Shown here piece after piece: positions 767 through 31,088 of a stretch of DNA of 64,000 nucleotides. The stretch is from Gammaproteobacteria bacterium (GTDB lineage: Bacteria > Pseudomonadota > Gammaproteobacteria > Burkholderiales > Gallionellaceae), in contig JAHJNJ010000039.1 of assembly GCA_018820925.1 (NCBI GenBank), positions 1-64,000 of the forward strand. The letters are read 5' to 3'. The translations under genes and the position numbers were made by a program. The notes below the pieces were generated by a model, which was not told the DNA's origin, made no database searches, and saw nothing but the letters and a program-made list of their open reading frames with translations. Positions within the stretch are counted from its first letter, which is position 1; every line of letters begins with the position of its first letter.

Positions 767-2566
767 ATGTCAGCTTACGAAACTCAGGGCTTCAAGCTCG
801 ACAACAGCGGCAAGCGCGTGGTGGTCGATCCGGTATGCCGCATCGAAGGACACTTGCGCGTCGAAGTGAATCTGGACAGCAACAACGTCATCCGCAATGC
901 CGTTTCCACCGGCACCATGTGGCGCGGTCTGGAGGTGATCCTGAAAGGCCGCGACCCTCGCGATGCCTGGGCGTTCACCGAGCGTATCTGCGGTGTGTGC
1001 ACCGGCACGCATGCGCTGACTTCGGTGCGCGCAGTGGAAGACGCGTTGTCCATCCAGATTCCCGAGAACGCCAACACCATCCGCAACATCATGCAGCTCA
1101 ACCTGTATGTGCACGATCACCTGGTGCACTTCTACCACTTGCATGCGCTGGACTGGGTGGACGTGGTATCCGCGCTCAAGGCCGATCCGAAGAAGACTTC
1201 CGATCTGGCGCAGAGCATCTCGAGCTGGCCGCTATCGTCGCCCGGTTATTTCCGCGATGTGCAAAATCGTTTGAAGAAGTTCGTTGAGTCCGGTCAGCTC
1301 GGCCCGTTCAGCAACGGTTACTGGGGCAGCCCGGCCTACAAGCTGCCGCCGGAAGCCAACCTGATGGCGGTGACGCATTACCTCGAAGCGCTCGATTTCC
1401 AGAAAGAGATCGTCAAGGTCCACACCATTTTCGGCGGCAAGAATCCGCACCCGAACTGGCTGGTGGGCGGCGTGCCGTGCGCGATCAACCTGAACGATGT
1501 CGGCGCAGTCGGCGCGATCAACATGGAACGCCTGAACCTGGTGAAGAGCATCATCGACCGCAGCAAGGAATTCGTGGAGAAGGTGTACATCCCCGACCTG
1601 CTGGCCATCGCGTCGTTCTACAAAGGCTGGGGTTACGGCGGCGGACTGTCGTCGAAGAACTTCATGTCCTACGGCGATATTCCGCAGCACGCCAACGATT
1701 ACACCGCGCCCAATCTGTTGTTGCCGCGCGGTGCCGTCATCAACGGCGACCTCAGCAAGATCCACGAGATCGACCTGCGCAATCCGGATGAGATCCAGGA
1801 GTTCGTTTCGCACTCCTGGTACAAGTATGCAGACGAGAGCAAGGGCCTGCATCCCTGGGACGGTATCACCGAAGCCAACTATTCTCCCGAAGGTCCGAAC
1901 TTCAAGGGCTCGCGTACCAGGATCGAGAACCTCGACGAGAGCGCCAAGTACTCCTGGATCAAGGCACCACGCTGGAAAGGCAATGCCATGGAAGTCGGTC
2001 CGCTGTCGCGCATGGTGCTGGGCTATTTGCAGCCCAAGCAATATCCGGTCATCAAGGACACCATCGACGGCGTGCTGAAGAAACTGGACCTGCCGGTGAC
2101 GGCCTTGTTCTCCACGCTGGGCCGCACGGCGGCGCGCGGCATCGAGGCGTTGTATTGCGCCGACCTGCAAGTGCAGCAGTTCGACAAGCTGATGGCCAAC
2201 CTCAAGGCCGGCGACGACTCCACGGCCAACGTCGAGAAGTGGGAGCCGTCCACCTGGCCCAAGGAAGCCAAGGGCGTGGGCTTCACCGAAGCACCACGCG
2301 GCGCACTGGGTCACTGGATCAAGATCAAGGACACCAAAATCGACAACTACCAGTGCGTGGTGCCGACTACCTGGAACGGCAGTCCGCGCGATGCCAAAGG
2401 CCAGATAGGCGCGTTCGAAGCTTCGCTCATGAATACACCCATGGCCAAGGCCGATCAACCGCTGGAGATACTGCGCACGCTGCACAGTTTCGACCCCTGC
2501 CTGGCATGCTCCACGCATGTGATGTCGCCGGACGGGCAAGAGATGAGCCGTGTCACGGTTCGCTAA
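767..2566 (+). CDS. hupL: [NiFe] uptake hydrogenase large subunit
   Basis: N-terminal [12 protein letters not shown] and C-terminal DPCLACSTH motifs, followed by a cleavable extension [15 protein letters not shown]. Confidence 0.98.
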
Positions 2567-2587
2567 CGCGCACGAAAGGAGACTGTC

Positions 2588-3292
2588 ATGTCAGTTACAA
2601 CACAAGACGACGACTCGGCGCTCACCGCCGCGGGCAATACGGTGTATGTGTACGAAGCACCGGTGCGCGCGTGGCACTGGATCAACGCACTGAGCATCGT
2701 GACGCTGGCGATCACCGGCTGGTTCATCGCCAGTCCGCTACCGAGTGTGAGCGGAGAAGCGAGCGAAAACTTCCTCATGGGCAATATCCGCTTCGTGCAT
2801 TTTGCGGCGGGCTATGTGTTTGCCATCGGCTTGCTGGTGCGTCTGTACTGGGCGTTCGTGGGCAATCATCATGCGCGCCAGTTGTTCCTGCTGCCGGTGA
2901 CCGACAAGAACTGGTGGGCCGGTTTATTGCAGGAGATTCGCTGGTACGCGTTCCTCGAAAAGTATCCGAAGAAATATGTGGGCCATAACCCGCTCGGACA
3001 TCTGTTCATGTACTTCGCCATTACGCTGAGCGGCACATTCCTCATCGTCACCGGCTTCGCGCTGTACGGCGAAGGTGCACAGGAAGGACACTGGTCACAC
3101 ACGCTGTTCACCAGCTGGGTGATCCCGTTGTTCGGGCAAAGCCAGACGGTGCATACCTGGCATCACCTGGTGGCCTGGGGCGTGGTGTGCTTCGTGATCA
3201 TCCACGTGTACACGGCGATCCGCGAGGACATCATGTCGCGGCAAACCATGATCAGCGCGATGATTGATGGCAAGCGGACGTTCCGTGAGTAA
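2588..3292 (+). CDS. hupC: Ni/Fe-hydrogenase b-type cytochrome subunit
   Basis: Hydrophobic multi-TM protein with RAWHWINALSI and HTWHHLVAWGVVCFVIIHVY; directly follows hupL. Confidence 0.95.
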   Translation: MSVTTQDDDSALTAAGNTVYVYEAPVRAWHWINALSIVTLAITGWFIASPLPSVSGEASENFLMGNIRFVHFAAGYVFAIGLLVRLYWAFVGNHHARQLFLLPVTDKNWWAGLLQEIRWYAFLEKYPKKYVGHNPLGHLFMYFAITLSGTFLIVTGFALYGEGAQEGHWSHTLFTSWVIPLFGQSQTVHTWHHLVAWGVVCFVIIHVYTAIREDIMSRQTMISAMIDGKRTFRE

Positions 3293-3341
3293 ACGGTTCG
3301 GTCTTCCCTTGCGACAGCCTTCCCTTAAGGTTAACAACGCC

Positions 3342-3674
3342 ATGTCGCAAGCGTTGAAAGCAAACGCGGGCAATCGCCCGCGTTTCTTTTGGGCCGCACC
3401 GCGCACGCCGGTGCATCCCGGTCATTTCCTCGAAACCCGCTATCTGCAGCCCGGCAAGATCTCGCAAGAGGCACTTGCTGACGCGCTCGGCATTTCCCGT
3501 CGCCGCGTCAACGAACTGGTCTGTGGAAAGCGCGTGATCACCCCCGATACCGCCGTGCGCCTGGCCTTGCATTTCGGCACGGATGTGGCGTTCTGGCTGG
3601 AGTTGCAGTTCGCCTGGGATCTGCATCAGGCGCAGCAACTGTATTACGGTAAGGTTATATCCGTTCCGGAGTAG
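3342..3674 (+). CDS. HigA/VapI-family XRE antitoxin-like HTH protein, no toxin ORF seen nearby
   Basis: HPGHFLETRYLQPGKISQEALADALGISRRRVNELVCGKRVITPDTAVRLALHFGTDVAFWLELQFAWDL matches the HigA HTH pattern; ATG at 3342 chosen over the longer ORF start. Confidence 0.85.
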   Translation: MSQALKANAGNRPRFFWAAPRTPVHPGHFLETRYLQPGKISQEALADALGISRRRVNELVCGKRVITPDTAVRLALHFGTDVAFWLELQFAWDLHQAQQLYYGKVISVPE

Positions 3675-3685
3675 CCGGTAACCGG
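3675..3685. repeat. Short palindrome CCGGTAACCGG just after the HigA-like stop codon
   Basis: Read directly; function unknown. Confidence 0.4.
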
Positions 3686-3690
3686 TCAGC

Positions 3691-3704
3691 CAATGTCCAC
3701 ATTG
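3691..3704. promoter_or_regulatory. 14-bp palindrome CAATGT-CC-ACATTG, candidate activator site
   Basis: Perfect inverted repeat about 70 bp upstream of a sigma54-like promoter; binding protein unknown. Confidence 0.4.
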
Positions 3705-3771
3705 AAACAGTCAGATTTATGGCTGTGCAAGTAACACATTAATTTCTATAAATAATCCAGTTTTCGGCAGT

Positions 3772-3787
3772 TGGCATGAGTCCTGCT
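3772..3787 (+). promoter_or_regulatory. Candidate sigma54 (-24/-12) promoter TGGCATGAGTCCTGCT
   Basis: GG-N10-GC spacing preserved; matches TGGCACG-N4-TTGCW except two positions; about 30 bp upstream of the hupD ATG; sigma54 activator encoded in the same locus. Confidence 0.65.
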
Positions 3788-3815
3788 GTTACACAGTGCG
3801 TAACAAGGAGGAGAT

Positions 3816-4427
3816 ATGAATAAAAACAAACTGCTGATACTCGGTATCGGCAACATCCTGTGGGCAGACGAAGGCTTTGGCGTGCGCTGTGTGGAAACGC
3901 TGAATGCCGCTTACCAGTTTGGCGACGATGTGACCGTGCTGGATGGCGGCACGCAAGGCCTGTACCTGCTGCCTTTTCTCGAAGAAGCGCGCTACCTGAT
4001 CGTGTTCGATGCCGTGGACTACGGCAAGACGCCAGGCGAAATGGTCATCGCCAAAGACGAGGAAGTGCCGCGCTTCATGGGTGCCAAGAAAATGAGTCTG
4101 CACCAGACCGGTTTCCAGGAAGTCATCGCCTGTGCCGCGCTGGGCGAGAAATTGCCAGAATCCATGATGCTCATCGGCGTGCAGCCGGAACAACTGGAAG
4201 ATTTCGGCGGCAGCCTGCGCAACATCGTCAAACAACAAATTCCGCGCGCACTGGATGTGGCGCTGCAACAAATCCGGCAATGGGGTTTCACTTATTCGCC
4301 GCGCAGCACGAGCGTGGTGGATGAACATCAGCATGTGCTGCAGATGGATGAATACGAGGCGGGACGGCCCTCGGCCGAACTGGCTTGCCGTCATGGCGAC
4401 GAGCGATTCATGAGCGGGCAGGTTTGA
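3816..4427 (+). CDS. hupD: Hydrogenase maturation endopeptidase
   Basis: ILGIGNILWADEGFGVRCVE and VLDGGTQGLYLL motifs of the HupD/HyaD/HoxM family. Confidence 0.96.
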   Translation: MNKNKLLILGIGNILWADEGFGVRCVETLNAAYQFGDDVTVLDGGTQGLYLLPFLEEARYLIVFDAVDYGKTPGEMVIAKDEEVPRFMGAKKMSLHQTGFQEVIACAALGEKLPESMMLIGVQPEQLEDFGGSLRNIVKQQIPRALDVALQQIRQWGFTYSPRSTSVVDEHQHVLQMDEYEAGRPSAELACRHGDERFMSGQV

Positions 4428-4428
4428 T

Positions 4429-4737
4429 ATGTGTCTCGGTATCCCCATGCAGGTTATTGAAGTGCACGAAACCACCGCGCTGTGCGCAGGCCGCAACGGG
4501 CAGATGTTGATCAACACCATGCTGCTGGAAAAAGTGGAAGTCGGGCAGTGGCTGCTGACTTTCCTGGATGCGGGGCGCGAGGTGATCGATGCGGAGCGCG
4601 CGGCGCTGGTGAATGCGGCGCTGGACGGGTTGCAGGCGTTGTCGGACGGCAGCGAGGTGGATATGGATGTGTTCTTTGCCGACCTGGTGAACCGGGAGCC
4701 GACGCTGCCGGAATTTTTGAGAAAGGACAGGATATGA
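4429..4737 (+). CDS. hupF: HypC/HupF-family hydrogenase chaperone
   Basis: MCLGIPMQVIEV start typical of HypC/HupF; operon position. Confidence 0.93.
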   Translation: MCLGIPMQVIEVHETTALCAGRNGQMLINTMLLEKVEVGQWLLTFLDAGREVIDAERAALVNAALDGLQALSDGSEVDMDVFFADLVNREPTLPEFLRKDRI

Positions 4738-5216
4738 GCGAGACGGTGGAGTTCTCCGCGATACGTGCGGCTGAAATGAAGGAGAGTTTTAATCTTTTGC
4801 TGGAACGCTTGCGCGCACAAAGCAAGATCATGTTGCTGGACGCGGAAGGTCTCGAATCCTTTGTGATGGAGGGCGATGATGGCATGGTGCTGTTCACGCA
4901 GGAGCCGGACCAGCAACCCGAGACCTGGGACGTGGCGGTGATCCTGCCCGAAGTGCTTAAACTGACCGGCGACCGCTTGCGCGCCGCGATCATCTCGCCC
5001 GAATTGGCGCGCAAGGAAAAAGCGCGCTTCGGCATCACGCGCTGGCCCACGCTGGTGTTCGTGCGCGACGGCGGCTATGTCGGCGCGATCGAAGGCATGC
5101 GCAACTGGGACGAATACACGCGCGAGATCGCGGAGATGCTGGATAAGCCGGTGGGGCGCGCGCCGTCGGTGGGGATTCCGGTGACGGCGGTGGGCGAAGC
5201 GTCGGCTTGTCACTAA
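4734..5216 (+). CDS. hupG: HupG/HyaE thioredoxin-like hydrogenase assembly protein
   Basis: ATG overlaps hupF stop; WDVAVILPEVLKLTGDRLRAAIISPE...FGITRWPTLVFVRDGGYVGAIEGMRNWDEY. Confidence 0.88.
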   Translation: MSETVEFSAIRAAEMKESFNLLLERLRAQSKIMLLDAEGLESFVMEGDDGMVLFTQEPDQQPETWDVAVILPEVLKLTGDRLRAAIISPELARKEKARFGITRWPTLVFVRDGGYVGAIEGMRNWDEYTREIAEMLDKPVGRAPSVGIPVTAVGEASACH

Positions 5217-5228
5217 TAGATTATCGAT

Positions 5229-5333
5229 TCCCTCCCCCTTGCAGGGGGAGGGGTAGGGTGGGGGTAGAAAAAAGGTGCGACAGTTGTCCGTTCTTACCCC
5301 CATCCCAGCCTTCCCCCTTAAAGGGGGAAGGAG
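5229..5333. repeat. Palindromic intergenic element CCCTCCCCCTTGCAGGGGGAGGGGTAGGGTGGGGGT...ACCCCCATCCCAGCCTTCCCCCTTAAAGGGGGAAGG
   Basis: Two local hairpins inside long imperfect inverted arms, between hupG and hupH. Confidence 0.8.
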
Positions 5334-5389
5334 CGTGAGGCAGGTATCCACAGAATTTGGCGAAGGCAAAAAAATTTAAGGAGCAATCC

Positions 5390-6262
5390 ATGATGAAAGA
5401 ATTCCCCATCCCCCTGGTCGCAATCGGCCCCGGCTCCCAGCCGGAGGAAGAGGCGCTGCAATACATGCCGCTGCCCGCCTCGATGATGACGTTTGCCCTG
5501 CCGGTGCTCAACGAAGAAGCCGATCCCGCCCTGATGGCCGCCGCCTGCCGCGTGGTGGAGCAACTGCGCGACAAGATGCGCGTTACGCCGCTCGGCTCAC
5601 CCGACATTCCGCAAGCCGAGCTGCATGAGGTGGATGCCGAGGTGGTGCAATTGCTGAACCAGACCCTGGGCGAGGGCGAGGTGAGTATCGCGGTGCGCGG
5701 TTCGGGCCAGTACCGTATCCAGGAAACGGTGTTCGCCAGCGTGTGGCGCGTGCATGAATTCGCGACCGACGGGCGTCTGATCGGCGATACCATCATGGCC
5801 TGCGCGATTCCGCCCATGGTGGTTCAGTGGGCGCGGGACGGCGTGTCGCTGGAGTGCCCGATTCCGGAAAAGACGCCGGGCATCATGAATGCGCTGTCGG
5901 TGTTGTCGGAGATCGTGGGCAAGGCCGGGGCATTCAAGTCGGGCGATGCTGCGCATGTCGTCAACCTGACTTTGCTGCCCATGTCGCCGGAAGACATGAA
6001 TTGCCTGACGATGGCGCTGGGCGTGGGGGCGGTGACCATTCTCTCGCGCGGTTACGGCAATTGCCGCATCACCAGCACCCGGTTGCCGAATGTGTGGTGG
6101 GTGCAGTACTTCAACAGCATGGACACGCTGATCCTGAACACCCTGGAAGTCAGCGAAGTGCCGGAAGTGGCGCTGGCCTCGCAGGAGGACTATGAGGACA
6201 GCATCGAACGCCTGGGCGAATGGCTGCACGTGATGCAGGCGCCGGAAGATATGAACGAATAA
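5390..6262 (+). CDS. hupH: HupH/HyaF-family hydrogenase expression/assembly protein
   Basis: KEFPIPLVAIGPGSQPEEEALQYMPLPASM...RGYGNCRITSTRLPNVWWVQYFNSMDTLILNTLEV. Confidence 0.93.
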   Translation: MMKEFPIPLVAIGPGSQPEEEALQYMPLPASMMTFALPVLNEEADPALMAAACRVVEQLRDKMRVTPLGSPDIPQAELHEVDAEVVQLLNQTLGEGEVSIAVRGSGQYRIQETVFASVWRVHEFATDGRLIGDTIMACAIPPMVVQWARDGVSLECPIPEKTPGIMNALSVLSEIVGKAGAFKSGDAAHVVNLTLLPMSPEDMNCLTMALGVGAVTILSRGYGNCRITSTRLPNVWWVQYFNSMDTLILNTLEVSEVPEVALASQEDYEDSIERLGEWLHVMQAPEDMNE

Positions 6263-6263
6263 T

Positions 6264-6482
6264 ATGAGCATGTTCGAGGGCTCTTTTCTGGGCGACAATA
6301 GGAAATTATCGGATGATGCGGTGCGGATGGAATGCGGCATCTGCTGGGAGGTGTACGATCCTGCCTTGGGCGATGCGGTTTGGCAGATCGCACCCGGCAC
6401 CCCGTTCTCGCAATTGCCGGAGCACTGGACCTGCCCGAACTGCGATGCGCCCAAGCACAAGTTTATGGTGGAAAACGTATGA
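6264..6482 (+). CDS. hupI: HupI rubredoxin
   Basis: CGICWEVYDP...WTCPNCDAPKHKF rubredoxin motifs. Confidence 0.95.
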   Translation: MSMFEGSFLGDNRKLSDDAVRMECGICWEVYDPALGDAVWQIAPGTPFSQLPEHWTCPNCDAPKHKFMVENV

Positions 6483-6502
6483 ACCTGTGAAATGCGGTTG
6501 TC

Positions 6503-6590
6503 GTAGGTGCGAATTTATTCGCACATAACTTCTGGTTCGTGCGAACACCCACAGGGTGCAAGAACCTCGGCGAGGTAAATTCGCACCTAC
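6503..6590. repeat. Palindromic element GTAGGTGCGAATTTATTCGCAC...GGTAAATTCGCACCTAC
   Basis: Inverted arms read directly, between hupI and hupJ. Confidence 0.8.
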
Positions 6591-6615
6591 AAGCGCCCAA
6601 TTTGCGGATATCAAA

Positions 6616-7134
6616 ATGAACGAAATCGAACAAAAACTGGAAAAGGTATTCACCGACATCGCCAACACGCGCATGGCGGGGCTGCCCATCTGCAATCCCG
6701 TGCTGCGCGTGCAGGCGGTTGGGTTTCGCGAGTGGCAGGAGCACTGGGTGGGCGTGCTGGTCACGCCGTGGACCATCAGCTTGGTGCTGATGCCGGGTGA
6801 AAAAGGCCCGCTCAAGACGCTGGGCGCGGACGAGAAGATGACTTGGGAATTTCCTTCGGGCAATTACGAGTTCATGGGGTTGAACGAACCGGCGCTGGGC
6901 AGTTGCCAAGTGTGTTCGCTGATTTCGCCGGTGGGCGATGTGGCGTCTCACGAGGATGCGGTGACGATTGCCGGGCAGGTGATGGAAGCCCTGTTCGTGG
7001 CGGACAATTCCGACCAAAGACGCGATGCGCAACGCAGACAGGAATTCGAGACCGCGCGCATGCAGGGCGAGCCGGTGCTGGATAAACCGCTTTCGCGGCG
7101 CGATTTTCTGCGCGGCAATTTCCTGGGGATGTAG
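6616..7134 (+). CDS. hupJ: HupJ/HybE-family [NiFe]-hydrogenase assembly chaperone
   Basis: MAGLPICNPVLRVQAVGFREW...VGVLVTPWTISLVLMPG...WEFPSGNYEFMG; ATG at 6616 avoids translating the upstream repeat. Confidence 0.9.
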   Translation: MNEIEQKLEKVFTDIANTRMAGLPICNPVLRVQAVGFREWQEHWVGVLVTPWTISLVLMPGEKGPLKTLGADEKMTWEFPSGNYEFMGLNEPALGSCQVCSLISPVGDVASHEDAVTIAGQVMEALFVADNSDQRRDAQRRQEFETARMQGEPVLDKPLSRRDFLRGNFLGM

Positions 7135-7136
7135 GT

Positions 7137-8219
7137 TTGGTGGATGTCGGCAAGTTAACGCTGAGTGTGATCCGGGACGGCAATTCGGTCAGCGCGACGG
7201 AGATCCGTTCCACGCGCCCGATGGCGGCGCAGATACTGAAAGGCAAGACGCCCGCGCAGGTTCTGCAGATTGTCCCCCTGTTGTTCAGTGTGTGCGGCCG
7301 CGCACAGGGCGCGGCGGCCGCAGCCGCGTTGCAGGCGGCAAGGCAGGGCGATGCGGCTGCTTCGGCTGCGGAAGAGCGGACAATTGTCTGCGAAGCCATA
7401 CAGGAACACTTGTGGCGCATCCTGCTCGATTGGCCCAAGTTGCTGGGTTTGCCCCAACAGGAGCAACGTTTCGCGGGGTGGTATGCGCTGTTGCGCAAGA
7501 TCGGCGCGGGCGAGGCTGCCATGGATATTTTCCTGCATGAGTTCGAGCGCGCTAGCCTGGGCATGCCGGTTGCGGAATGGCGGTTATTCAGTGATTATCA
7601 CGCGTTGCAAACAGGGTTTAGCGAGGCGCATAGTCCGGTGGCACAATTGCTGTCTAAACTGGACGCATTGCAGCATGACGGTAAGCGTCCGGACACGGTC
7701 CGGCTGTTGCCCGCCTGGACGGCGACAGAAGCCAGCCGGGCATGTGCCGGAAAATGGAATGCCGATTTCTCCGCCCACCCTGAATGGCTTGGGAACGCGG
7801 CGGAAGCGGGTGCGTGGACTTACTATGCAGACGACAAGTTGCTGTGCGATGTGCGGCAACAGGGCGGTTCGGCAGCATTGATCCGCGTGCTGGCCAGGGT
7901 GCTGGATGTGATCGAAATGGCAAGCGGCAGTGCCGCGAAGCGGCTGGATGTTGTCAGCCCGGCGCCGGGCGAAGGCATTGCGGTGGTGCGCACCGCGCGC
8001 GGCTTGCTGATGCATCACGTGCGATTGGCGGCGGAGCAGGTGAAGGAATACGAGATCGTGGCACCGACGGAATGGAATTTTCATCCGGACGGCGCATTCG
8101 CGCAGGACATGCGCGGTCTGGAAGTCGAAGACGCGGAACAGTTGCAACAACTGGCGCAGATTGCCGCCTTGTCGCTCGATCCCTGCGTTGCATACGAAGT
8201 GGAGATTCGCAATGCATGA
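7137..8219 (+). CDS. hupK: HupK, HupL-like hydrogenase assembly scaffold
   Basis: TTG (or GTG at 7140) start; PTEWNFHPDGAFAQDMRGLE and LDPCVAYEVEIRNA resemble the HupL C-terminus without the full active-site motif. Confidence 0.85.
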   Translation: MVDVGKLTLSVIRDGNSVSATEIRSTRPMAAQILKGKTPAQVLQIVPLLFSVCGRAQGAAAAAALQAARQGDAAASAAEERTIVCEAIQEHLWRILLDWPKLLGLPQQEQRFAGWYALLRKIGAGEAAMDIFLHEFERASLGMPVAEWRLFSDYHALQTGFSEAHSPVAQLLSKLDALQHDGKRPDTVRLLPAWTATEASRACAGKWNADFSAHPEWLGNAAEAGAWTYYADDKLLCDVRQQGGSAALIRVLARVLDVIEMASGSAAKRLDVVSPAPGEGIAVVRTARGLLMHHVRLAAEQVKEYEIVAPTEWNFHPDGAFAQDMRGLEVEDAEQLQQLAQIAALSLDPCVAYEVEIRNA

Positions 8220-8553
8220 GATGTCGTTGGCGGAGGGCGTTTTGCAGTTAATTGAGGATTCGGCCAGGACGCAGGATTTCAGCCGCGTCAAAACCGTGTG
8301 GCTGGAGATCGGCCAACTGGCGGGCGTGGAAGTGGAGGCGATGAAGTTCTGTTTCGATGCGGTGGTGCATGACAGCATCGCCGAGAATGCGGAATTGGTG
8401 ATTATCGAAATACCCGGCCAGGCCTGGTGCATGCATTGTGCCGAAGTCGTGCATGTGCAGGCCCTGTTCGATGCCTGTCCCCAGTGTGGCAGCCATCAGG
8501 TGCAGGTGACGGGCGGAAATGAAATGCGAGTCAAGGAACTCGACGTGGAATAG
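8212..8553 (+). CDS. hypA: Hydrogenase nickel incorporation protein HypA
   Basis: MHEMSLAEGVLQLIED start; zinc site CMHC...CPQCGS. Confidence 0.97.
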   Translation: MHEMSLAEGVLQLIEDSARTQDFSRVKTVWLEIGQLAGVEVEAMKFCFDAVVHDSIAENAELVIIEIPGQAWCMHCAEVVHVQALFDACPQCGSHQVQVTGGNEMRVKELDVE

Positions 8554-8562
8554 GAGGATGTA

Positions 8563-9597
8563 ATGTGTAATGTTTGCGGTTGCGGTGCGGGAGAAACAAC
8601 GATTGACGGCAAGGCCGTGGAGCATGACGGGCATGGCCACAGCCACGGCGGTCATTTCCACGTGCATGCGGACGGTACCGCGCACGATCACGATCACGAC
8701 CACGATCATGATCACACCCACGACCATGCGCAGGCAAAACACGTGCACTACCACCTGCATGAGGACGGCACCTCACACGAGCATGTGCACGATCATGCCC
8801 ACGGCCACGGCCATTCGCATACGCATGATCACGATCATGAACACAGTCATGCACACGATGCGACTATCCACTACGGGCTGGGCCCGGCCGGCGCGCATGC
8901 GCCCGGCATGAGCCAGTCGCGCATGGTGAAGATCGAGAAGGATATCCTGTCCAAAAACGACAGCTACGCCAACGACAATCGCGGCCATCTGGCCGGGCAT
9001 GGCATCTTCGCCCTGAACCTGGTGTCCAGTCCCGGTTCCGGCAAGACCACGCTGCTCGTGAAAACCATCGGCGCGCTGAACGGCAGCCTGCCGCTTGCGG
9101 TGATCGAGGGCGACCAGCAGACCGACAACGATGCCGCGCGCATCCGCGCCACCGGCGCACCCGCGCTGCAAATCAACACCGGCAAGGGATGTCACCTGGA
9201 TGCGTTCATGGTGGGCAAAGCCATTCACCAGCTTGACCTGCAGGACGACAGCCTGTTGCTGATCGAGAACGTCGGCAACCTGGTGTGTCCCGCCAGCTTC
9301 GATCTGGGCGAGGCGCACAAGGTCGCGATACTTTCCGTGACCGAAGGCGAAGACAAGCCGCTAAAATACCCCGATATGTTCCTCGCTTCCGACCTGATGC
9401 TGTTGAACAAATGCGACCTGCTGCCGTACCTGACCTTCGATGCCGACCTGGCCGTGGCCAATGCGCGCCGCGTCAATCCGGATATCAAGGTGATCCGCAT
9501 CTCTGCCACCAGCGGCGAGGGTATGGAAGAATGGCTGGAGTGGATCAGGGCGGGTTGCAGGAAAGCGGTAGACAGAAAAACGATAGATGGCAGGTAA
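8563..9597 (+). CDS. hypB: Hydrogenase nickel incorporation GTPase HypB with long His-rich N-terminus
   Basis: CxxCGC motif MCNVCGCG; His/Asp-rich stretch; P-loop [19 protein letters not shown]. Confidence 0.98.
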
Positions 9598-9599
9598 AC

Positions 9600-9630
9600 G
9601 TAGGATGGGTGGAGCGCAGCGATACCCATC
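9600..9630. repeat. Half-copy of the GTAGGATGGGTGGAGCG(C/T)AGCGATACCCATC repeat
   Basis: Matches one arm of the 31010-31088 palindrome with one mismatch. Confidence 0.85.
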
Positions 9631-9659
9631 AAAAAAATGAATCGCAAAACCAAAAAATC

Positions 9660-9781
9660 AGCCACAGAGATCACAGAGAAAACGGCACCGGCTTTCCTCT
9701 GTGAGCTCTGTACCCGCAGGGGGCAGGCCGTGGTTGTAAGGGGCTTAAGCCCCAACAACACACGCTCTGTTCTCTGTGGCT
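9660..9781. repeat. Nested inverted repeats: AGCCACAGAGA...TCTCTGTGGCT enclosing GGGGCTTAAGCCCC
   Basis: Read directly in the hypB-hypF gap. Confidence 0.75.
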
Positions 9782-9803
9782 ATAATCGGTTTTAAAGGCA
9801 GTT

Positions 9804-12107
<2,304 letters not shown>

Positions 12108-13636: not shown

Positions 13637-14685
13637 ATGAACACAGTCAAACCCAACTACACCCGCGCCCTCGACATCAAACACGGCCGCGTCGACATGT
13701 CGCACGGTTCTGGCGGGCGCGCGATGGCGCAGCTCATCACGGAGCTTTTCTCTTCCGCTTTTGATAACGAATACCTGGCGCAGGGTAATGACGGCGCGAC
13801 GTTGCCACATGCCGACGGCCATCTGGTGATGGCGACAGACAGCCATGTGGTGTCGCCGCTGTTTTTTGCGGGCGGCGACATCGGCTGCCTGTCGGTGCAT
13901 GGCACCATCAACGACGTGGCGGTGATGGGGGCCAAGCCGTTGTACTTGTCGGCGTCGTTCATCCTCGAAGAGGGCTATCCGCTGGCCGACCTGAAGCGCA
14001 TTGTCGACTCGATGGCGCAGGCTGCGCGCGACGCGGGCGTGCCCATCGTCACCGGCGATACCAAGGTGGTGGAGCAGGGCAAGGGCGACGGCGTGTTCAT
14101 CACCACCACGGGGGTGGGCGTGGTGCGCGACGGTATTCATCTGTCCGGCGACCTGGCGCAGCCGGGCGACAAGATATTGTTGTCCGGCAGCATCGGCGAT
14201 CACGGCATGGCGATATTGTCGCAGCGCGAGGGGTTGACGTTCTCGGCGCCCATCGTGTCGGACACGGCGGCGTTGCATGGACTCATCTCGGTGATGCTGG
14301 ACAGCGGGGCGAAGCTGCGCGTGCTGCGCGATCCGACGCGCGGCGGGCTGGCGACGACGCTGAACGAAATCGCCAAACAATCCGGCGTGGGCATGATGCT
14401 GCACGAATCGGCCATTGCGGTGAACCAGCCGGTCGAGGCGGCCTGCGAATTTCTCGGGCTGGATCCGCTGTATGTGGCGAATGAAGGCAAGCTGATCGCG
14501 ATCTGTGCGCCGGAAGATGCAGCGCGTTTGCTGGAAGTGATGCGCGCCCATCCGCTGGGCGGCGCCGCGTCCATCATCGGCGAAGTGCAGGAAGATGCGC
14601 ACGGTTTTGTGCAGATGACCACCAAACTGGGCGGCCGCCGCGTCGTGGATTGGCTGGCCGGGGAACAGTTGCCGAGGATCTGTTG

Positions 14686-14686: not shown

Positions 14687-16129
<1,443 letters not shown>

Positions 16130-16137
<8 letters not shown>

Positions 16138-17143
16138 TGTGGCAACACCTCTCAACCTGCTCTGGCTGCAATCGGGCGGCTGCGGCGGTTGCACGCTGTC
16201 GCTGCTGAATGCGGATTGCCGCAACCTGGTCGACACGCTGAGAAGTTTCGGTATCAACCTGCTGTGGCATCCCTCCCTGTCCGAACAGAGTGCGGACGAG
16301 GCGCGCAGGATTTTCGAGATGTGCGCCAGCGGGGAAACGCGGCTGGACATCCTGTGCCTGGAAGGAGCAGTGCTGAAGGGGCCGTTCGGCAGCGGCGGTT
16401 TCCACCGCACCACGGGCAACGAGTCGATGATGCATCTGCTCGAGCGCCTGGCCGGGGTTGCACGGCACACGGTGGCGGTGGGCAGTTGCGCCGCGTTCGG
16501 CGGGGTGACGGCGGCCGGTATCAACCCGGCCGATGCCTGCGGCATGCAATATGACATCGATGAGCAGGGCGGCTTGCTCGGCGAAGATTACCGCGCGGGC
16601 GACGGCTTGCCCGTGATCAACATCGCAGGGTGTCCCACGCATCCCAACTGGGTGATGGAAACGCTGGTGGCGATTGCGCAGGGCGAGATGTATGAATCGA
16701 ACCTGGATGTGTACCGGCGTCCGCGCCTGTATGCGGACCATCTGGTGCATCACGGTTGCAAGCGCAACGAGTTCTATGAATTCAAGGCCAGCGCGCACAA
16801 ACCCTCCGACCTGGGGTGCCTGATGGAACACATGGGTTGCAAGGGCACGCAAGTGCATGCCGATTGCAACATCCGTTTGTGGAACGGCGAGGGTTCCTGC
16901 ACGCGCGGCGGCTATGCCTGCATCGCCTGCACCGAGCCGGGCTTTGAAGAACCGGGTCATGCATTCGGCATCACGCCCAAAGTGGCGGGTATTCCCATCG
17001 GTCTGCCGACGGACATGCCGAAAGCATGGTTTGTCGCGCTGGCGGCCTTGTCCAAATCGGCCACGCCCAGGCGCGTGAAAGAGAATGCGGTGGCCGACCA
17101 TCAGGTGGTCGTCCCGGCGAACAAGAGGACGCGATTGAAATGA
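16130..17143 (+). CDS. hoxB: Regulatory (H2-sensing) hydrogenase small subunit HupU/HoxB
   Basis: LLWLQSGGCGGCTLSLL start without Tat signal; AVGSCAAFGGVTAAG; GEGSCTRGGYACIACTEPGFEEPGH; ATG overlaps hoxA stop. Confidence 0.93.
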
Positions 17144-18588
17144 GCCGCCGTATCGTTGGGCCGTTCAACCGTGTTGAAGGCGATCTGGAAGTCACGCTCG
17201 ATATCGAGTCCGGTCGCGTGCGCGCGGCTTTCGTGAATTCGCCCATGTACCGCGGCTTCGAGCAGATCCTGGCGGGCAAGCATCCGCTGGACGCGCTGGT
17301 GTTTGTGCCGCGCATCTGCGGGATTTGCTCGGTGGCGCAATCGGCGGCGTCGGCACAGGCGCTGGCGCAAAGCATGGGCATCCAGCCTCCGCAAAACGGC
17401 CGCCTGGCGGCCAACCTGACGCTGGCCGCGGAAAATCTGGCAGACCATCTCAGCCATTTTTATTTGTTCTTCATGCCGGATTTTGCGCGTGACGGTTATC
17501 GCGATCGCGCGTGGTTTACCGACGTGCAGGCCCGTTTCAAGGCGGTGACGGGTTCGGCCACGGCAGATGTATTGCCGGTGCGTGCCAAATTCATGAATGT
17601 GATGGGCTATCTGGCGGGCCGCTGGCCGCACACGCTTTCCCTGCAGCCCGGCGGTTCGTCGCGCCCGCTGGAAGAGGCGGAGAAATTGCGCCTGAAAATC
17701 CTGCTCGCCGAGTTTCGTGCATTTCTGGAAAACACTTTGTTCGGCGATAGTCTGGAAGCGGTGGCGGCACTGGATTCCGAAGCCGCACTTTATGCGTGGA
17801 TGGAGCCGCGCGCACAGCGCGCAGACTTCCCGCGTTTCCTGAACATCGCGCGCGATATCGGGTTGCAGCACATGGGTCGCGCCACGGACCGGTTCATCAG
17901 CTATGGCGCGTATTCCGACGGCACGGCTCCCCTGTTTGCGGCGGGAGTGTGGGCGGAAGAAATATTGCATAAATTGGACATCGGCGCGATCCGCGAGGAT
18001 GTGACGCGCAGCTGGATGGCGGGCGATGCCGCACTGGCCCCGCACGAGGGCCGTACCCAGCCGGATCCGGACAAGGCGGATGCCTATTCGTGGTGCAAGG
18101 CGCCGCGCCTGTCCGGGAAAGTGGTGGAGACGGGCGCGCTGGCGCGCCAGATGGTGGCCGGGCATCCGCTGGTACGCGACATGGTGAATCTCCACGGTGC
18201 CAGCGTGACGGCAAGGATTGTCGGGCGTATGCTGGAATTTGCGCTGGTGCTGCCCGCGATGGAAACCTGGTTGCGGCAGATACTGCCGGGCGACACGTAT
18301 TGTTTGCCGTCTCACGAGCTTGAGGATGCGCGCGGCATCGGCCTGATCGAAGCGGCGCGCGGTGCGCTCGGGCACTGGCTGGATGTGCGCAACGGGAGAA
18401 TCCATAATTACCAGATCATCGCACCCACCACCTGGAATTTCTCCCCGCGCGATGCCGTCGGGGAGCCCGGCGCACTGGAGCAGGCGCTGGTCGGGCTGGA
18501 AGCGGAAGAAGGCGGGGACGCGGCGCCGCTGCAGGTGCAGCATGTGGTCAGGTCGTTCGATCCGTGCATGGTGTGCACGGTGCATTAA
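17140..18588 (+). CDS. hoxC: Regulatory (H2-sensing) hydrogenase large subunit HupV/HoxC
   Basis: VPRICGICSVAQS; terminates directly at DPCMVCTVH with no cleavable extension. Confidence 0.94.
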   Translation: MSRRIVGPFNRVEGDLEVTLDIESGRVRAAFVNSPMYRGFEQILAGKHPLDALVFVPRICGICSVAQSAASAQALAQSMGIQPPQNGRLAANLTLAAENLADHLSHFYLFFMPDFARDGYRDRAWFTDVQARFKAVTGSATADVLPVRAKFMNVMGYLAGRWPHTLSLQPGGSSRPLEEAEKLRLKILLAEFRAFLENTLFGDSLEAVAALDSEAALYAWMEPRAQRADFPRFLNIARDIGLQHMGRATDRFISYGAYSDGTAPLFAAGVWAEEILHKLDIGAIREDVTRSWMAGDAALAPHEGRTQPDPDKADAYSWCKAPRLSGKVVETGALARQMVAGHPLVRDMVNLHGASVTARIVGRMLEFALVLPAMETWLRQILPGDTYCLPSHELEDARGIGLIEAARGALGHWLDVRNGRIHNYQIIAPTTWNFSPRDAVGEPGALEQALVGLEAEEGGDAAPLQVQHVVRSFDPCMVCTVH

Positions 18589-24864: not shown

Positions 24865-26286
24865 CTATTTCTTTTTGCGGTAGGCTTCCGCAATCTCGCG
24901 AAACTGCTTGAGTTCGGTCTCGATGGTGGAAAGCTGGTAGTAGTCATTGCCGGCTCGTTTGGCCAATTCCAGTTGGTCGATCGCACCGAACAGGTTGCCG
25001 TGCAGAATGTAGTTGTAAGCCAGCACGTGATGCTCTTCCTGATGCCTGCCCAGGGCCGCATAGGCACGGGCCTGCAGTTCGTAGAGTTTCGGGTCATTGC
25101 CGTCGCGATTGACTTGTTCATCGAGCAGTTTGAGCGCTTCGTTGTAACGCCTGTCCTGCAGCAGCAATTCGGCATAGTCGTAGATCAGCGCATGGTGCTC
25201 CGGAAAGTTCTTCAGTGCGGTGCGATAGAACGCAAAGATTTCCTTGTCCTGCTTGTCCAGTTGCTTGATCTGCCCGGCCAGCGTCTCTATGGTCGCGTTG
25301 AGCGGCGATTGTTTGTGCAGGATGGCGAATTCCTGCCCGGCGCGTTGCGGTTGGTGGTTGCGCAATAATGCCAGCACCAGGCCGTAACGCTGGGCGATGG
25401 GGTTGCCGAATTTGTTTTTTCCCAGGGCGCCTTCGAAATAATCGACTGCATCCTGCGCCAGTTTTTGATTGGCAATCAGGCGCGCGCGCATCAGCTGGAA
25501 ATCCAGGCTGTCCGGTACAAGATGATAGGGGATTTGTTGCACGCGACCATCGACATCGGCAATACGTTCGTGGGTGATCGGGTGGGTGCGCAGATATGAG
25601 GGGGTGTTTCCTTCCACCAGTTGTGTGGCTTTTTGCATGCGCTCAAAAAACAGCGGCATGGCACGGGTATCGAAGCCGGATTTTTCCAGAATGCTGAGGC
25701 CGATACGGTCAGCCTCTTTTTCATGTGTGCGGGTAAAGTTGAGCTGGCGCTGGACCGACCCTGCTTGCGTGCCGATGATGGCGGCATTTGCCGTTTCCGG
25801 GCTGTTGCGCGCGGCCAGGATGGCCACGGCAAGCGTCGCCAGGGCGGCGAGCGAATCGTAGCGCTGGCCGGACACCATGCGCGCATAGTGGTGCTGGGTA
25901 ACGTGCGCAATTTCGTGGCTCAATACCGAAGCGAGTTCGGATTCGGTTTGTGCCAGCAGTATCAATCCGGTGTTGACCCCGACATAGCCTCCCGGCAGGG
26001 CGAAGGCGTTGATGGCCCGGTCGTCGATGGCGAAGAACTCGAAAATGTCTCCCGGTTCCGGGCTGTTCGAAACCAGACGTTCGCCCAGTTGGTTGAGGTA
26101 ATCGGAGATCTCGGGATCGTCCATGTAACTCTTGTCGGCACGAATCTGGAACATGCTTTGTTCGCCGATCTGTTTTTCCATCTGCGGGGAGATAATTTCC
26201 TGGGATATATCGCCCATATCCGGCAGGCCGTCTGCGTGTGCATGCAGCGGCAGGGAAAATAGCAGGGATAAAAGGAATTTTTTCAT
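24865..26286 (-). CDS. M48-family periplasmic metalloprotease with TPR region (BepA-like)
   Basis: Signal peptide MKKFLLSLLFSLPLHAHA; HEIAHVTQHH; TPR-like C-terminus. Confidence 0.93.
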   Translation of the reverse strand: MKKFLLSLLFSLPLHAHADGLPDMGDISQEIISPQMEKQIGEQSMFQIRADKSYMDDPEISDYLNQLGERLVSNSPEPGDIFEFFAIDDRAINAFALPGGYVGVNTGLILLAQTESELASVLSHEIAHVTQHHYARMVSGQRYDSLAALATLAVAILAARNSPETANAAIIGTQAGSVQRQLNFTRTHEKEADRIGLSILEKSGFDTRAMPLFFERMQKATQLVEGNTPSYLRTHPITHERIADVDGRVQQIPYHLVPDSLDFQLMRARLIANQKLAQDAVDYFEGALGKNKFGNPIAQRYGLVLALLRNHQPQRAGQEFAILHKQSPLNATIETLAGQIKQLDKQDKEIFAFYRTALKNFPEHHALIYDYAELLLQDRRYNEALKLLDEQVNRDGNDPKLYELQARAYAALGRHQEEHHVLAYNYILHGNLFGAIDQLELAKRAGNDYYQLSTIETELKQFREIAEAYRKKK

Positions 26287-26542
26287 GGATGCTATGATAA
26301 CACTGCGCTCCGATGAGTTCCCCGGGGCGCTGAAATTCCTTGTAAAGCTCGTGGTTGCTGGACAGGTCGTCGCCCAGCCTTCAGAATGCGCGCGGGAAAA
26401 TATTAATCTCGCGTAGCGATTCGATTGTTCTCTCTCCCGCATGCGGGATAACCAATGACTTGGCTGTTGTCTTTGGACAGCCTAGTCAGATGGCTAGTTG
26501 TTTCACCCAGAGAGTTAGAGAGAGGGGCGCGCAGGCAAGGCT

Positions 26543-27838
26543 ATGATGGATAAGATTGGTAAATACGAGATTGTCAAGGAGTTGGGCCGCGGTGCGACAA
26601 GCACGGTGTATCTTGCGCTCGACCCGTTCAGCCAGCAACAGGTGGCACTCAAAGTATTCAATTTGCACAATTTGCGCGATGCCAATCGTGCCAAGGCTTA
26701 TCGCAAGCTGTTACTTACCGAGGCATCCCTGGCCGGGAAACTGTCGCACCCGCATATTGCAAAAATCTACGATGCGGTGATGGAAGGCGATGTGAATTAC
26801 GTGGTGATGGAATACATCGAGGGCGAGACGCTGGAAAAATACGGCGAAGTCGACCACCTCATGGATTTGGGCCGCATCGCCGAAATTATCTACAAATGCG
26901 GCAAAGCCCTGGAATATGCGCAATACCAGGGGGTTACGCATCGCGACATCAAGCCCGCCAATATTCTTCTGCGCGGCGACAGCGACATCAAGATCTCGGA
27001 TTTCGGCGCGGCGGTGGTCGAGAACCAGCAGAGCACGCAGGTCAGCGGTGTGGGCTCACCGGCCTATATGTCGCCGGAGCAGATCAAGGAGCAACCGCTG
27101 ACGCACCAGACCGATATTTATTCGCTGGGCGTGACCATGTACCGCCTGCTCACCGGCAAGCTGCCGTTCGATGCCGCCAACAGTTACAGCATGATCTACC
27201 AGATCATGAACATCGACCCGCAGCCACCCAGCACTTTCCGCCCGGAAATTCCGCGCGAAATGGATGCCATCGTGCTGCGCGCCATGAGCAAGGATCTGAC
27301 GCAGCGCTACCAGACATGGGACGAGTTTACGCGCGACCTGGTCTCGTTGATCAGCTACAACGTGCCGCAACAGGATGAATTCTTCGATACCGAAAAATTC
27401 AATACGCTGCGTGCGCTGAGCTTCTTCAGCAATTTCAGCGATGTCGAGCTGTGGGAGGTGCTGCGCATCAGCGATTGGCACAAGGTTCCCGGGGAGGAAT
27501 CGATCATTTCCGAAGGCGAGGAAGGCGTGAACTTTTTTGTCATCGCCAGCGGCTCGGTGCGCGTGGTCAAGCAGGGCAGATTGCTGAGTCTGCTGCACCA
27601 GGGCGATTGTTTCGGGGAAATGGCGCATCTCTCCGGCAAGGATGCGCGTCGCTCCACCGACGTATTCGCAAAAACCGATGTGACACTGATCGAAATCGAT
27701 CCGGAGGTGCTGACGCGCGCGTCGCCCAACTGCCGCTACCAGTTCAGCGAAGCATTCCTGGGAATGCTGGTGAAACGCTTGTCCATGGCGAATACGCGGA
27801 TTTCACGTTTGCTGAGCGACGATAAAGACGAATCATGA
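26543..27838 (+). CDS. Ser/Thr protein kinase fused to a C-terminal cyclic-nucleotide-binding domain
   Basis: GRGATSTVYLA, VALKVF, HRDIKPANILL, DFGAAV, YMSPEQ; then LRISDWHKVPGEESIISEGEEGVNFFVIASGSVRVVKQG...CFGEMAHLSGKDARRSTDV. Confidence 0.93.
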   Translation: MMDKIGKYEIVKELGRGATSTVYLALDPFSQQQVALKVFNLHNLRDANRAKAYRKLLLTEASLAGKLSHPHIAKIYDAVMEGDVNYVVMEYIEGETLEKYGEVDHLMDLGRIAEIIYKCGKALEYAQYQGVTHRDIKPANILLRGDSDIKISDFGAAVVENQQSTQVSGVGSPAYMSPEQIKEQPLTHQTDIYSLGVTMYRLLTGKLPFDAANSYSMIYQIMNIDPQPPSTFRPEIPREMDAIVLRAMSKDLTQRYQTWDEFTRDLVSLISYNVPQQDEFFDTEKFNTLRALSFFSNFSDVELWEVLRISDWHKVPGEESIISEGEEGVNFFVIASGSVRVVKQGRLLSLLHQGDCFGEMAHLSGKDARRSTDVFAKTDVTLIEIDPEVLTRASPNCRYQFSEAFLGMLVKRLSMANTRISRLLSDDKDES

Positions 27839-28071
27839 GTGACGTCATATTCGATGCGGAGCTTGATGTGCGGCAGTTGGCCTGTCCGCTGCCCATTCTG
27901 CGCGCCAAAAAGTCGCTGTCGGCGATGGAGGCCGGGCAAGTACTGAAAATTGTCGCGACAGACAAAGGCTCGCCCAGGGATTTTGTGGATTTTTGCGGCA
28001 AGACCGGGAATGAGCTGCTGTCTTCAACGGAACTGGGCGGCGAATTCATTTTCCTGATTCGCCGCCGGTAG
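27835..28071 (+). CDS. TusA/SirA-family sulfur carrier protein
   Basis: LDVRQLACPLPILRAKKSLSAMEAGQVLKIVATDKGS; 4-bp ATGA overlap with the kinase gene. Confidence 0.93.
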   Translation: MSDVIFDAELDVRQLACPLPILRAKKSLSAMEAGQVLKIVATDKGSPRDFVDFCGKTGNELLSSTELGGEFIFLIRRR

Positions 28072-28146
28072 GGTGGGCACGAACAACGTGCCCACCCTGA
28101 AACCCTTTCCGCAACCGCGTGGGCACTCAAAACGTGCCCACCCTAC
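28068..28146. repeat. GTAGGGTGGGCAC-family palindrome between convergent tusA-like gene and valS
   Basis: GTAGGGTGGGCACGAACAACGTGCCCACCCTG...GCGTGGGCACTCAAAACGTGCCCACCCTAC. Confidence 0.9.
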
Positions 28147-28148
28147 AT

Positions 28149-30956
28149 TTACCCCAGCTTCTTGCGTTGCGTCTGCAACTGCGCCAGCGTCGCACCGAAC
28201 TCTTCCAGCCGTTTCTTTTCCTGTTCCACCACTGCCGCCGGTGCGCGCGCGACAAAGCTCTCGTTGCCGAGCTTGGCTTGCGCCTTGGTGATTTCGTTGG
28301 AGAGGCGCGCGATTTCCTTGTCCAGGCGTTCGCGTTCGGCGGCGACGTCGATCTCCACCTTCAGCATCAGCTTGAAGTTGCCGACGATGGAAACCGGCGC
28401 GTCGCCTTCCGGCAACTCGGCGACGACCTGCACTTCGCTCAACTTGCCGAGACTGCTGATGTAGGGCGCGAGCGTGTTCAACGTGGCGGCATCGCCGGCG
28501 GCGATCAGCGGCACGCGTGCGGCCGGCGACAGGTTCATCTCGCTGCGCAGGCTGCGGCAGGCGTTGGTGAGCTCCTGCAGTAGCACGATCTGTTCGATGG
28601 ATGCTAGGTCAATCTTGTTCGCATCGCTCTTCGGATAGGCTTGCAGCATGATGCTGTCGCCCTTCTTGTTTGCCATCGGTGCGACCGACTGCCACAGTTC
28701 TTCGGTGATGAACGGAATGATGGGGTGCGCCAGACGCAGGATGCTTTCCAGCACGCGCACCAGCGTGCGGCGCGTTCCACGTTGCTGTGCCTCGTTGCCA
28801 TTCGCGATTTGGACTTTCGCGAGTTCTACGTACCAGTCGCAATAGGTGTTCCACACCAGTTCGTACACCGCACGCGCGGCCATGTCGAATCGGTAGTCGG
28901 CGAAATGCGTCGCCATCTCGGCTTCGGCCTTCTGCAATTCGCCGATCATCCACTTGTCGGCAGCCGAGAATTCCAGCGGCAGACTCTCGTCGAGACCGAC
29001 ATCCTTGCCGTCGCAATTCATCAGCACGAAGCGTGTGGCGTTCCACAGCTTGTTGCAGAAGTTGCGATAGCCTTCGCAGCGCTGCATGTCGAACTTGATG
29101 TCGCGACCGGGCGAGGCGAGCGAGGCGAAAGTGAAGCGCAGCGCGTCGGTGCCGAAGGCGGTGATGCCCTCGGGGAATTCGCGGCGCGTGCGTTTTTCGA
29201 TCTTCTCCGCGTCCTTCGGGTTCATCAGGCCGGTGGTGCGTTTCTTCACCAGGTCTTCGATGCCGATGCCGTCGATCAGGTCGATGGGGTCGAGCACATT
29301 GCCCTTGGATTTGGACATCTTCTGGCCTTCCGCATCGCGGATCAGGCCGTGTACGTACACATCCTTGAACGGGATCTTGCCGGTGATGTGCTTGGTCATC
29401 ATCACCATGCGCGCCACCCAGAAGAAGATGATGTCGAAGCCGGTGACCAGCACCGACGAGGGCAGGTATTGCTTCACGAATGCGTTCTGCGCGTCGAAGG
29501 GCCTGCCTTCTTCCCAGTCCAGCGTGGAGAACGGCCACAGCGCGGAGGAGAACCAGGTGTCGAGCACGTCGGCATCGCGCATGAGCATTCCGGCATAACC
29601 GGCCTTGTCGGCGAGCCTGCGTGCCTCGGTCTCGTCGTGGGCGACGAACACTTCGCCGTTGGTGCCATACCACGCGGGAATCTGGTGGCCCCACCACAGT
29701 TGGCGCGAGATGCACCAGTCCTGGATGTTGTTCAGCCACTGGTTGTAGGTGTTGACCCAGTTCTCGGGGTGGAACTTGATCTCGCCGGAACTCACACATT
29801 CCAGCGCCTGCTCGGTGATGGATTTGGATGGCTTCCCATCCTTTTGCGGCCCCGCCTTGCTCATGGCGACGAACCACTGGTCGGTCAGCATCGGCTCGAT
29901 GACGACACCAGTGCGGTCGCCGCGCGGCACTTTGAGTTTGTGCTTGTCGGCTTTGATGAACAGTCCGATGGCTTCGAGATCGGCCACGATCTGTTTACGT
30001 GCGGCGAAACGGTCCATGCCCTGATATTTGACAGGTGCATGTTCGTTGATCTTCGCATCCAGCGTAAGGACGGAGATCATCTCCAGCTTGTGGCGCTGGC
30101 CTACCGCATAGTCGTTGAAGTCATGCGCAGGCGTGACCTTCACCACGCCGGTGCCGAATTCCTTGTCCACGTATTCATCGGCGATGACGGGGATGGTGCG
30201 CTCGCACAGCGGCAGCGTGACCTGCTTGCCGATGAGGTGTTTGTAGCGCTCGTCCTCGGGATGCACCATCACCGCCACGTCGCCGAGCATGGTCTCGGGG
30301 CGGGTGGTGGCAACGGTCAGATGGCCGGAGCCGTCCGCCAGCGGATACTGGATGTGATACATGAAACCGTCTTCTTCTTCCTGCACCACTTCAAGGTCGC
30401 TCACTGCGGTGTGCAGTTTCGGGTCCCAGTTCACCAGGCGCTTGCCGCGATAGATCAGGCCTTCGTTGAACAGGCGCACGAAAGTTTCGGTGACGGATTT
30501 GGATAAACCTTCATCCATGGTGAAGCGCTCGCGCGACCAGTCGGGCGAGGTGCCGAGGCGGCGCATCTGCCTGGTGATGGTGTTGCCGGAATATTCCTTC
30601 CACTCCCAGACCTTCTCGATGAACTTCTCGCGGCCGAGGTCGTGGCGGCTGACGCCCTGTGCATCGAGCTGGCGTTCGACCACGATCTGCGTGGCGATGC
30701 CCGCGTGGTCGGTGCCCGGCTGCCACAGGGTGTTGTCGCCGCGCATGCGGTGGTAGCGCGTGAGCGCGTCCATCAATGTCTGGTTGAAGCCGTGGCCCAT
30801 GTGCAGCGTGCCGGTGACGTTGGGCGGCGGCAGCAGGATGCAGAAGTTGTCTGGTTTTGCGGCGTCGAGTCCGGCCTTGAAGTAACCGGCGTTTTCCCAG
30901 GTGGGGTACCAGCGGGCTTCAATATCTTTCGGGTCAAAACTTTTTGCGAGTTCCAT
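28149..30956 (-). CDS. valS: Valyl-tRNA synthetase
   Basis: [51 protein letters not shown]; start alternatively 30965. Confidence 0.97.
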
Positions 30957-31009
30957 TGCGGTCATTTCGGGAAATGCAGGGGTTCTAGAGAGGGCGGAAT
31001 TATACAGTT

Positions 31010-31088
31010 GTAGGATGGGTGGAGCGTAGCGATACCCATCAATTGAATGTGAAAAACGATGGGTATCGCTACGCTCCACCCATCCTAC
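31010..31088. repeat. Palindrome with 30-bp perfect arms GTAGGATGGGTGGAGCGTAGCGATACCCAT
   Basis: Left and right arms are exact reverse complements, 19-nt spacer, between holC and valS. Confidence 0.95.

Follow-up and report, generated by a model that had tools for sequence, protein, structure and literature searches.

Eukaryotic PKG, as represented by the Plasmodium enzyme (4RZ7, 5EZR), combines a kinase and a cyclic-nucleotide-binding (CNB) fold with a canonical phosphate-binding cassette in one chain, in which tandem N-terminal CNB domains precede an AGC kinase. The bacterial Hanks-type kinases are exemplified by the PknB/Stk1 type, and sulfur oxidisers contain rhodanese-TusA relay gene pairs, as in rhd-tusA-dsrE2. 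To our knowledge, switching of a bacterial Hanks kinase by cAMP or cGMP via a fused CNB domain has no biochemical demonstration. An 'Other_bacterial' class of CNB proteins, with the consensus GEMALLDGEPRSATVVA and with fusions to kinases, rhodanese and other domains, is described in the available text of Kannan et al. 2007 (PMC2246266).

The stretch of DNA analysed here (64,000 nucleotides, referred to as the window) encodes a soluble kinase-CNB protein followed by a TusA-family protein (Table 1). It is proposed that this kinase is switched by a cyclic nucleotide (cNMP) and leads a short operon with a rhodanese and TusA, a reading that, taken as a whole, is moderately favoured by the evidence below.

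Table 1. Coordinates in the window of the kinase-CNB gene, its domains and the flanking features
Feature	Position	Strand	Basis
BepA-type M48 metalloprotease with TPRs, divergent upstream neighbour of the kinase	24865..26442	-	Pfam, NCBIfam, related loci
Hanks-type Ser/Thr kinase with C-terminal cyclic-nucleotide-binding domain, 431 aa in length	26543..27838	+	Pfam, alignment, structure prediction
Kinase catalytic domain, aa 8-257, catalytic motifs all intact	26564..27313	+	Pfam, alignment, fold search
cNMP-binding domain, aa 314-391; phosphate-binding cassette FGEM...RRST; G328, E359, R370	27482..27715	+	Pfam, alignment
Predicted long C-terminal helix, aa 395-429, CAP C-helix-like	27725..27829	+	Structure prediction alone, with low confidence at the final residues
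TusA-family sulfur carrier, 78 aa, CPLP motif	27835..28071	+	Pfam, alignment
Strong nested inverted repeat (GTAGGGTGGGCACG...CGTGCCCACCCTAC) between the convergent tusA and valS	28068..28146	.	Repeat search, RNA folding
Valyl-tRNA synthetase (valS), convergent downstream neighbour, closing the syntenic block of the family	28149..31079	-	Pfam, related loci

Architecture of the kinase-CNB protein

In a Pfam search, the 431-residue protein matches PF00069 (Pkinase, 4.5e-53) over the whole catalytic domain and, above the cut-off, PF00027 (cNMP_binding, 1.1e-14) over the CNB domain. The kinase motifs are G15xG17, K37, E60, HRDIKPAN (133-140), DFG (153-155) and SPE (177-179), and an alignment of 119 relatives shows little or no variation at the catalytic positions. 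No TM segment was found in the protein, the maximal 19-residue Kyte-Doolittle mean being 0.98. The original prediction of a complete Hanks kinase, fused in a single chain without TM segment to a cNMP fold retaining FGEMA...RRST, and in the reverse of the PKG domain order, is thus borne out. Read from its sequence, the protein has a kinase-CNB architecture with an intact active site and a canonical cNMP pocket, and this combination of architecture and motifs is far beyond chance.

The AlphaFold2 model, built on a 42-sequence alignment (pLDDT 86.7, pTM 0.80), contains two folded domains, the kinase and a CNB beta-roll, and a long C-helix, which is a possible dimerisation element. The alignments of most relatives begin at residue 2, so translation may start at the second ATG, at 26546. 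Named relatives of the kinase come from Sideroxydans, Gallionella and other Gallionellaceae, and a Sideroxydans-like bacterium is the most probable source of the window. Kinase-CNB relatives are encoded in at least 570 candidate stretches found in one scan, and full-length matches occur in 40/110 genomes of the order and 33/232 of the class. Kinase-CNB genes on two contigs labelled Mycobacteriaceae and Bordetella parapertussis (L054, L057) probably stem from mis-binned or mislabelled assemblies.

The bepA-linked gene block and its lost rhodanese

Within the family, the block reads bepA, then kinase, rhodanese and tusA, then valS, which belongs to it in Gallionellaceae and in some other groups. 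Eight GTDB families have the order bepA-kinase-(rhodanese)-tusA; besides the family of the window, these are seven other families of the same order, in which bepA is collinear. Most related loci have a bepA orthologue next to the kinase, and the true start of bepA in the window probably lies near 26289, at the signal peptide. The kinase is still located beside bepA in families f44 and f46, and in f46 a tusA-rhodanese pair is found about 6 kb away. In a quick tree of 70 kinases, with SH-aLRT support only and drawn with a midpoint root, the bepA-linked kinases group together, apart from the tandem paralogues on contig C34 and the Rhodocyclales type; judged by this tree, the kinases at the bepA site are one lineage. 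The tandem paralogues of the window's genome (L112, G000:C34:353000-369000, about 6950-9940) are two kinase-CNB genes, 44-50% identical, located by recG and ubiA and conserved in the genus.

In all 60 of the 60 linked loci, the gene after the kinase is encoded on the same strand; the median gap is about 10 nt where a rhodanese follows and about 60 nt where tusA does, values that are approximate because the starts come from profile matches. Kinase-(rhodanese)-tusA is in all likelihood an operon. Conservation of the kinase-tusA pair, proposed as a check on the original prediction, therefore extends beyond close relatives, with the block in eight GTDB families and the same strand throughout.

A single-domain rhodanese (PF00581, 3.4e-21; CxxGGRS loop) lies between kinase and TusA in most Gallionellaceae relatives, usually a few bases from each. 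It is absent at the window locus and in a minority of relatives, and no close copy was found elsewhere in the genome of the window, where the best match is only 46% identical. The rhodanese has been deleted in this genome, and the earlier operon had three genes: kinase, rhodanese and tusA. The direct contact between kinase and tusA thus exists because the rhodanese was lost in a minority of lineages. The kinase stop and the tusA start overlap by 4 nt (ATGA) in the window, while the two genes are separated by about 30 nt in an 87% relative (L001), abut in L003 and are joined by TAATG in L022; these differing junctions suggest more than one deletion. As a signature of translational coupling, the ATGA overlap was rejected, since it is not kept even in 83-87% relatives. 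Of the kinase-TusA pairing put forward initially, the operon-like coupling stands, and the conserved unit is kinase-rhodanese-TusA, the third gene having been missed.

The TusA-family protein matches PF01206 (2.9e-21), and its CPLP corresponds to the CPxP motif, which is conserved in 37 aligned sequences; a TusA-like protein with CPxP whose gene overlaps that of the kinase by ATGA is therefore present, as had been claimed. It scores 48 bits against a cut-off of 78 on the tRNA 2-thiolation equivalog NF001423 of NCBIfam, and is therefore assigned to the TusA family without being called an orthologue of E. coli TusA. The inverted repeat downstream overlaps the tusA stop, contains two 26-nt direct copies (GTGGGCAC...CGTGCCCACCCT) and folds as RNA with z = -6.3; it is a candidate repeat element or bidirectional terminator. 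A strict search for the GTGGGCAC palindrome gave no match because the loop length differs, and the element is visible by repeat search and folding. Scanned for promoters and terminators, the operon scored no better than shuffles.

Additional arrangements were found in related loci. In L111 (4422-7602), the order is kinase-rhodanese-tusA-kinase, with a second kinase-CNB copy after tusA. In L125, L126, L132 and L133, from four families, a second, divergent kinase-CNB gene is located about 10-12 kb from the bepA-linked one on the opposite strand, and the genes between the two copies look housekeeping. In the family of L126, a COQ7 gene (13828-14466) follows rhodanese-tusA.

The strongest rival to the proposal is that the cNMP-regulated kinase is merely an inherited neighbour of an old bepA/tusA/valS group, functionally unconnected with the sulfur relay, and its chances fall only a little short of even. 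Among 90 genomes of the family, orthologues of the kinase are present in 56, of TusA in 69 and of both in 41, against 42.9 expected (Fisher p = 0.44), with orthologues called by bit score and counts uncorrected for phylogeny; outside the window's own genus the two occur together in 17 genomes against 21.8 expected, if anything a negative association. Relatives without the kinase retain bepA-rhodanese-tusA-valS or bepA-tusA-valS, and those with it lose tusA, rhodanese or both; since such separate losses of rhodanese, TusA or kinase are common, the case for an obligate partnership is weakened. Similarly, bepA and tusA are close to each other in family f22, with a chromate transporter between them and no kinase, and tusA lies near valS without a kinase in several families. 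Mere inheritance is harder to reconcile with the tight same-strand spacing in every linked locus, with the persistence of the block in a single kinase lineage spanning at least eight families, and with 20 sampled genomes of other families, lacking a kinase at the locus, where no bepA turned up within roughly 4 kb of tusA. If the proposed kinase-led operon holds, co-transcription would most likely reflect shared expression timing in a common physiological state; that the kinase shares a process with the sulfur relay can be suggested only tentatively, and the balance is somewhat against it.

Cyclic-nucleotide pocket and the suggested control of sulfur transfer

The equivalents of Gly169, Glu200 and Arg209 of PKA are G328, E359 and R370, and all three are kept in 78/78 aligned bepA-type kinases. 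The spacing from Glu to Arg in the cassette is 11, which by our count exceeds that of CAP by one residue and that of PKA by two; with this longer spacing, the pocket could bind something else. According to the available text of Kannan et al. (PMC2246266), Gly169 and Arg209 mark cAMP-binding CNB domains and CNB scaffolds are known to switch ligand, those families with other ligands typically losing the Arg. A CNB domain that binds no cyclic nucleotide and serves dimerisation or another ligand, as in FNR, CooA and CprK, would fit this record of ligand change, the longer cassette and the paralogous Rhodocyclales-type kinases, in which the Gly169 equivalent is mostly lost (Gly in 2/26; most of the eight sequences scored without R370 have an Arg at the preceding position, which was treated as a shift in the alignment and not as a loss). 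The joint retention of Gly, Glu and Arg in every bepA-type kinase, and of the Arg in particular, makes this alternative unlikely.

The genome of the window contains nine class III cyclase matches and 19 CNB domain matches, so that a ligand is available in principle. Given the fully conserved cNMP residues and these cyclase matches, a cNMP-regulated soluble kinase is likely. Binding of a cNMP by the kinase-CNB protein is put forward with considerable confidence, and control of kinase activity by the bound nucleotide with somewhat less, as reasonably probable. In the proposed mechanism, class III cyclases would make a 3',5'-cyclic nucleotide, which the C-terminal CNB domain would bind; binding would shift the C-terminal helix and toggle the kinase between a less and a more active state. 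The kinase would be the first gene of a short operon next to bepA, originally also comprising the rhodanese and the TusA sulfur carrier, and the rhodanese deletion would have brought tusA into translational coupling with the kinase.

Another cluster of the same genome (L178, G000:C39:61500-73500, 1139-9487) encodes, in one direction, a CHASE2-Hanks kinase, a PP2C, an FHA protein, a CHASE2-class III cyclase, a metallo-beta-lactamase-fold protein matching class II cAMP phosphodiesterase and a CNB-rhodanese fusion, relatives of which are found in 11/110 genomes of the order. On contig C18 (L179), a protein with two TusA domains is encoded near a cas6 gene (2915-3388), and another tusA is located with dsrE2 and a sulfate permease (15518-18440).

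The original prediction went further and suggested phospho-regulation or cNMP control of sulfur transfer, a suggestion that the present data do not favour. Co-occurrence of kinase and TusA is at chance level, and a comparison of kinase-linked TusA with TusA elsewhere yielded no kinase-specific Ser/Thr: T42 and T57 hardly vary in either group (97-100% conserved), and the enrichment of S27 beside the kinase (0.69 vs 0.23) is confounded by phylogeny. Direct control of TusA therefore stays a guess. The operon coupling and the C39 cluster, with its kinase, PP2C, FHA, cyclase and PDE-like genes and its CNB-rhodanese fusion, would suit phosphorylation of TusA or the rhodanese by the kinase, or direct cNMP control of sulfur transfer through it, but the invariance of T42 and T57 regardless of the kinase, the independent losses of kinase, rhodanese and TusA, and the lack of any report of TusA phosphorylation by such a kinase in the literature searched, which lies largely outside subscription journals, make it very improbable that either protein is a direct substrate. 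A wider view, in which the cNMP-gated Hanks kinase and the rhodanese-TusA relay would form one regulated sulfur-trafficking module in betaproteobacteria, with the C39 locus in the same cNMP-sulfur network, is also improbable; it is not rated lower because the C39 locus is the only other tie between cNMP sensing and a rhodanese here.

Comparison with known systems

The kinase-CNB architecture is common and, as a fusion class, has been in print since 2007 (PMC2246266); in its available text, that study describes neither this kinase lineage nor the rhodanese-tusA operon. Cyclic-nucleotide domains are unmentioned in two surveys of bacterial kinase architecture (Krupa 2005, Tyagi 2010), and the same literature, largely outside subscription journals, yielded nothing on this operon and no account of a bacterial Hanks kinase activated by a cNMP. 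Because this soluble lineage is widespread and its pocket is conserved throughout, cNMP-kinase switching could be tested with one purified protein, and the conserved kinase-rhodanese-TusA operon offers a concrete lead as to which process such a kinase might serve. A link between kinase and sulfur relay, if real, would join second-messenger signalling to intracellular sulfur transfer.

In comparison with rhd-tusA-dsrE2, relatives of the window likewise have neighbouring single-domain rhodanese and TusA genes, a likeness of gene order only; there is no dsrE2 at the site, the kinase leads the operon and the rhodanese is lost in the window. The kinase shares its fold and motifs with PknB/Stk1-type kinases and gives a strong partial match to PknB_PASTA of NCBIfam (272 bits against a PASTA-kinase cut-off of 450), but it lacks the TM and PASTA segments and carries a CNB domain instead. 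It likewise differs from PKG in placing the kinase first, followed by a single C-terminal CNB domain. By PDB sequence and fold search, the kinase domain is nearest to bacterial PknB and not to PKG, whereas the CNB half, compared by sequence because the fold search was filled with kinase matches, is nearest among solved structures to the CNB domains of apicomplexan PKG and PKA RI (PDB sequence matches to 8e-21).
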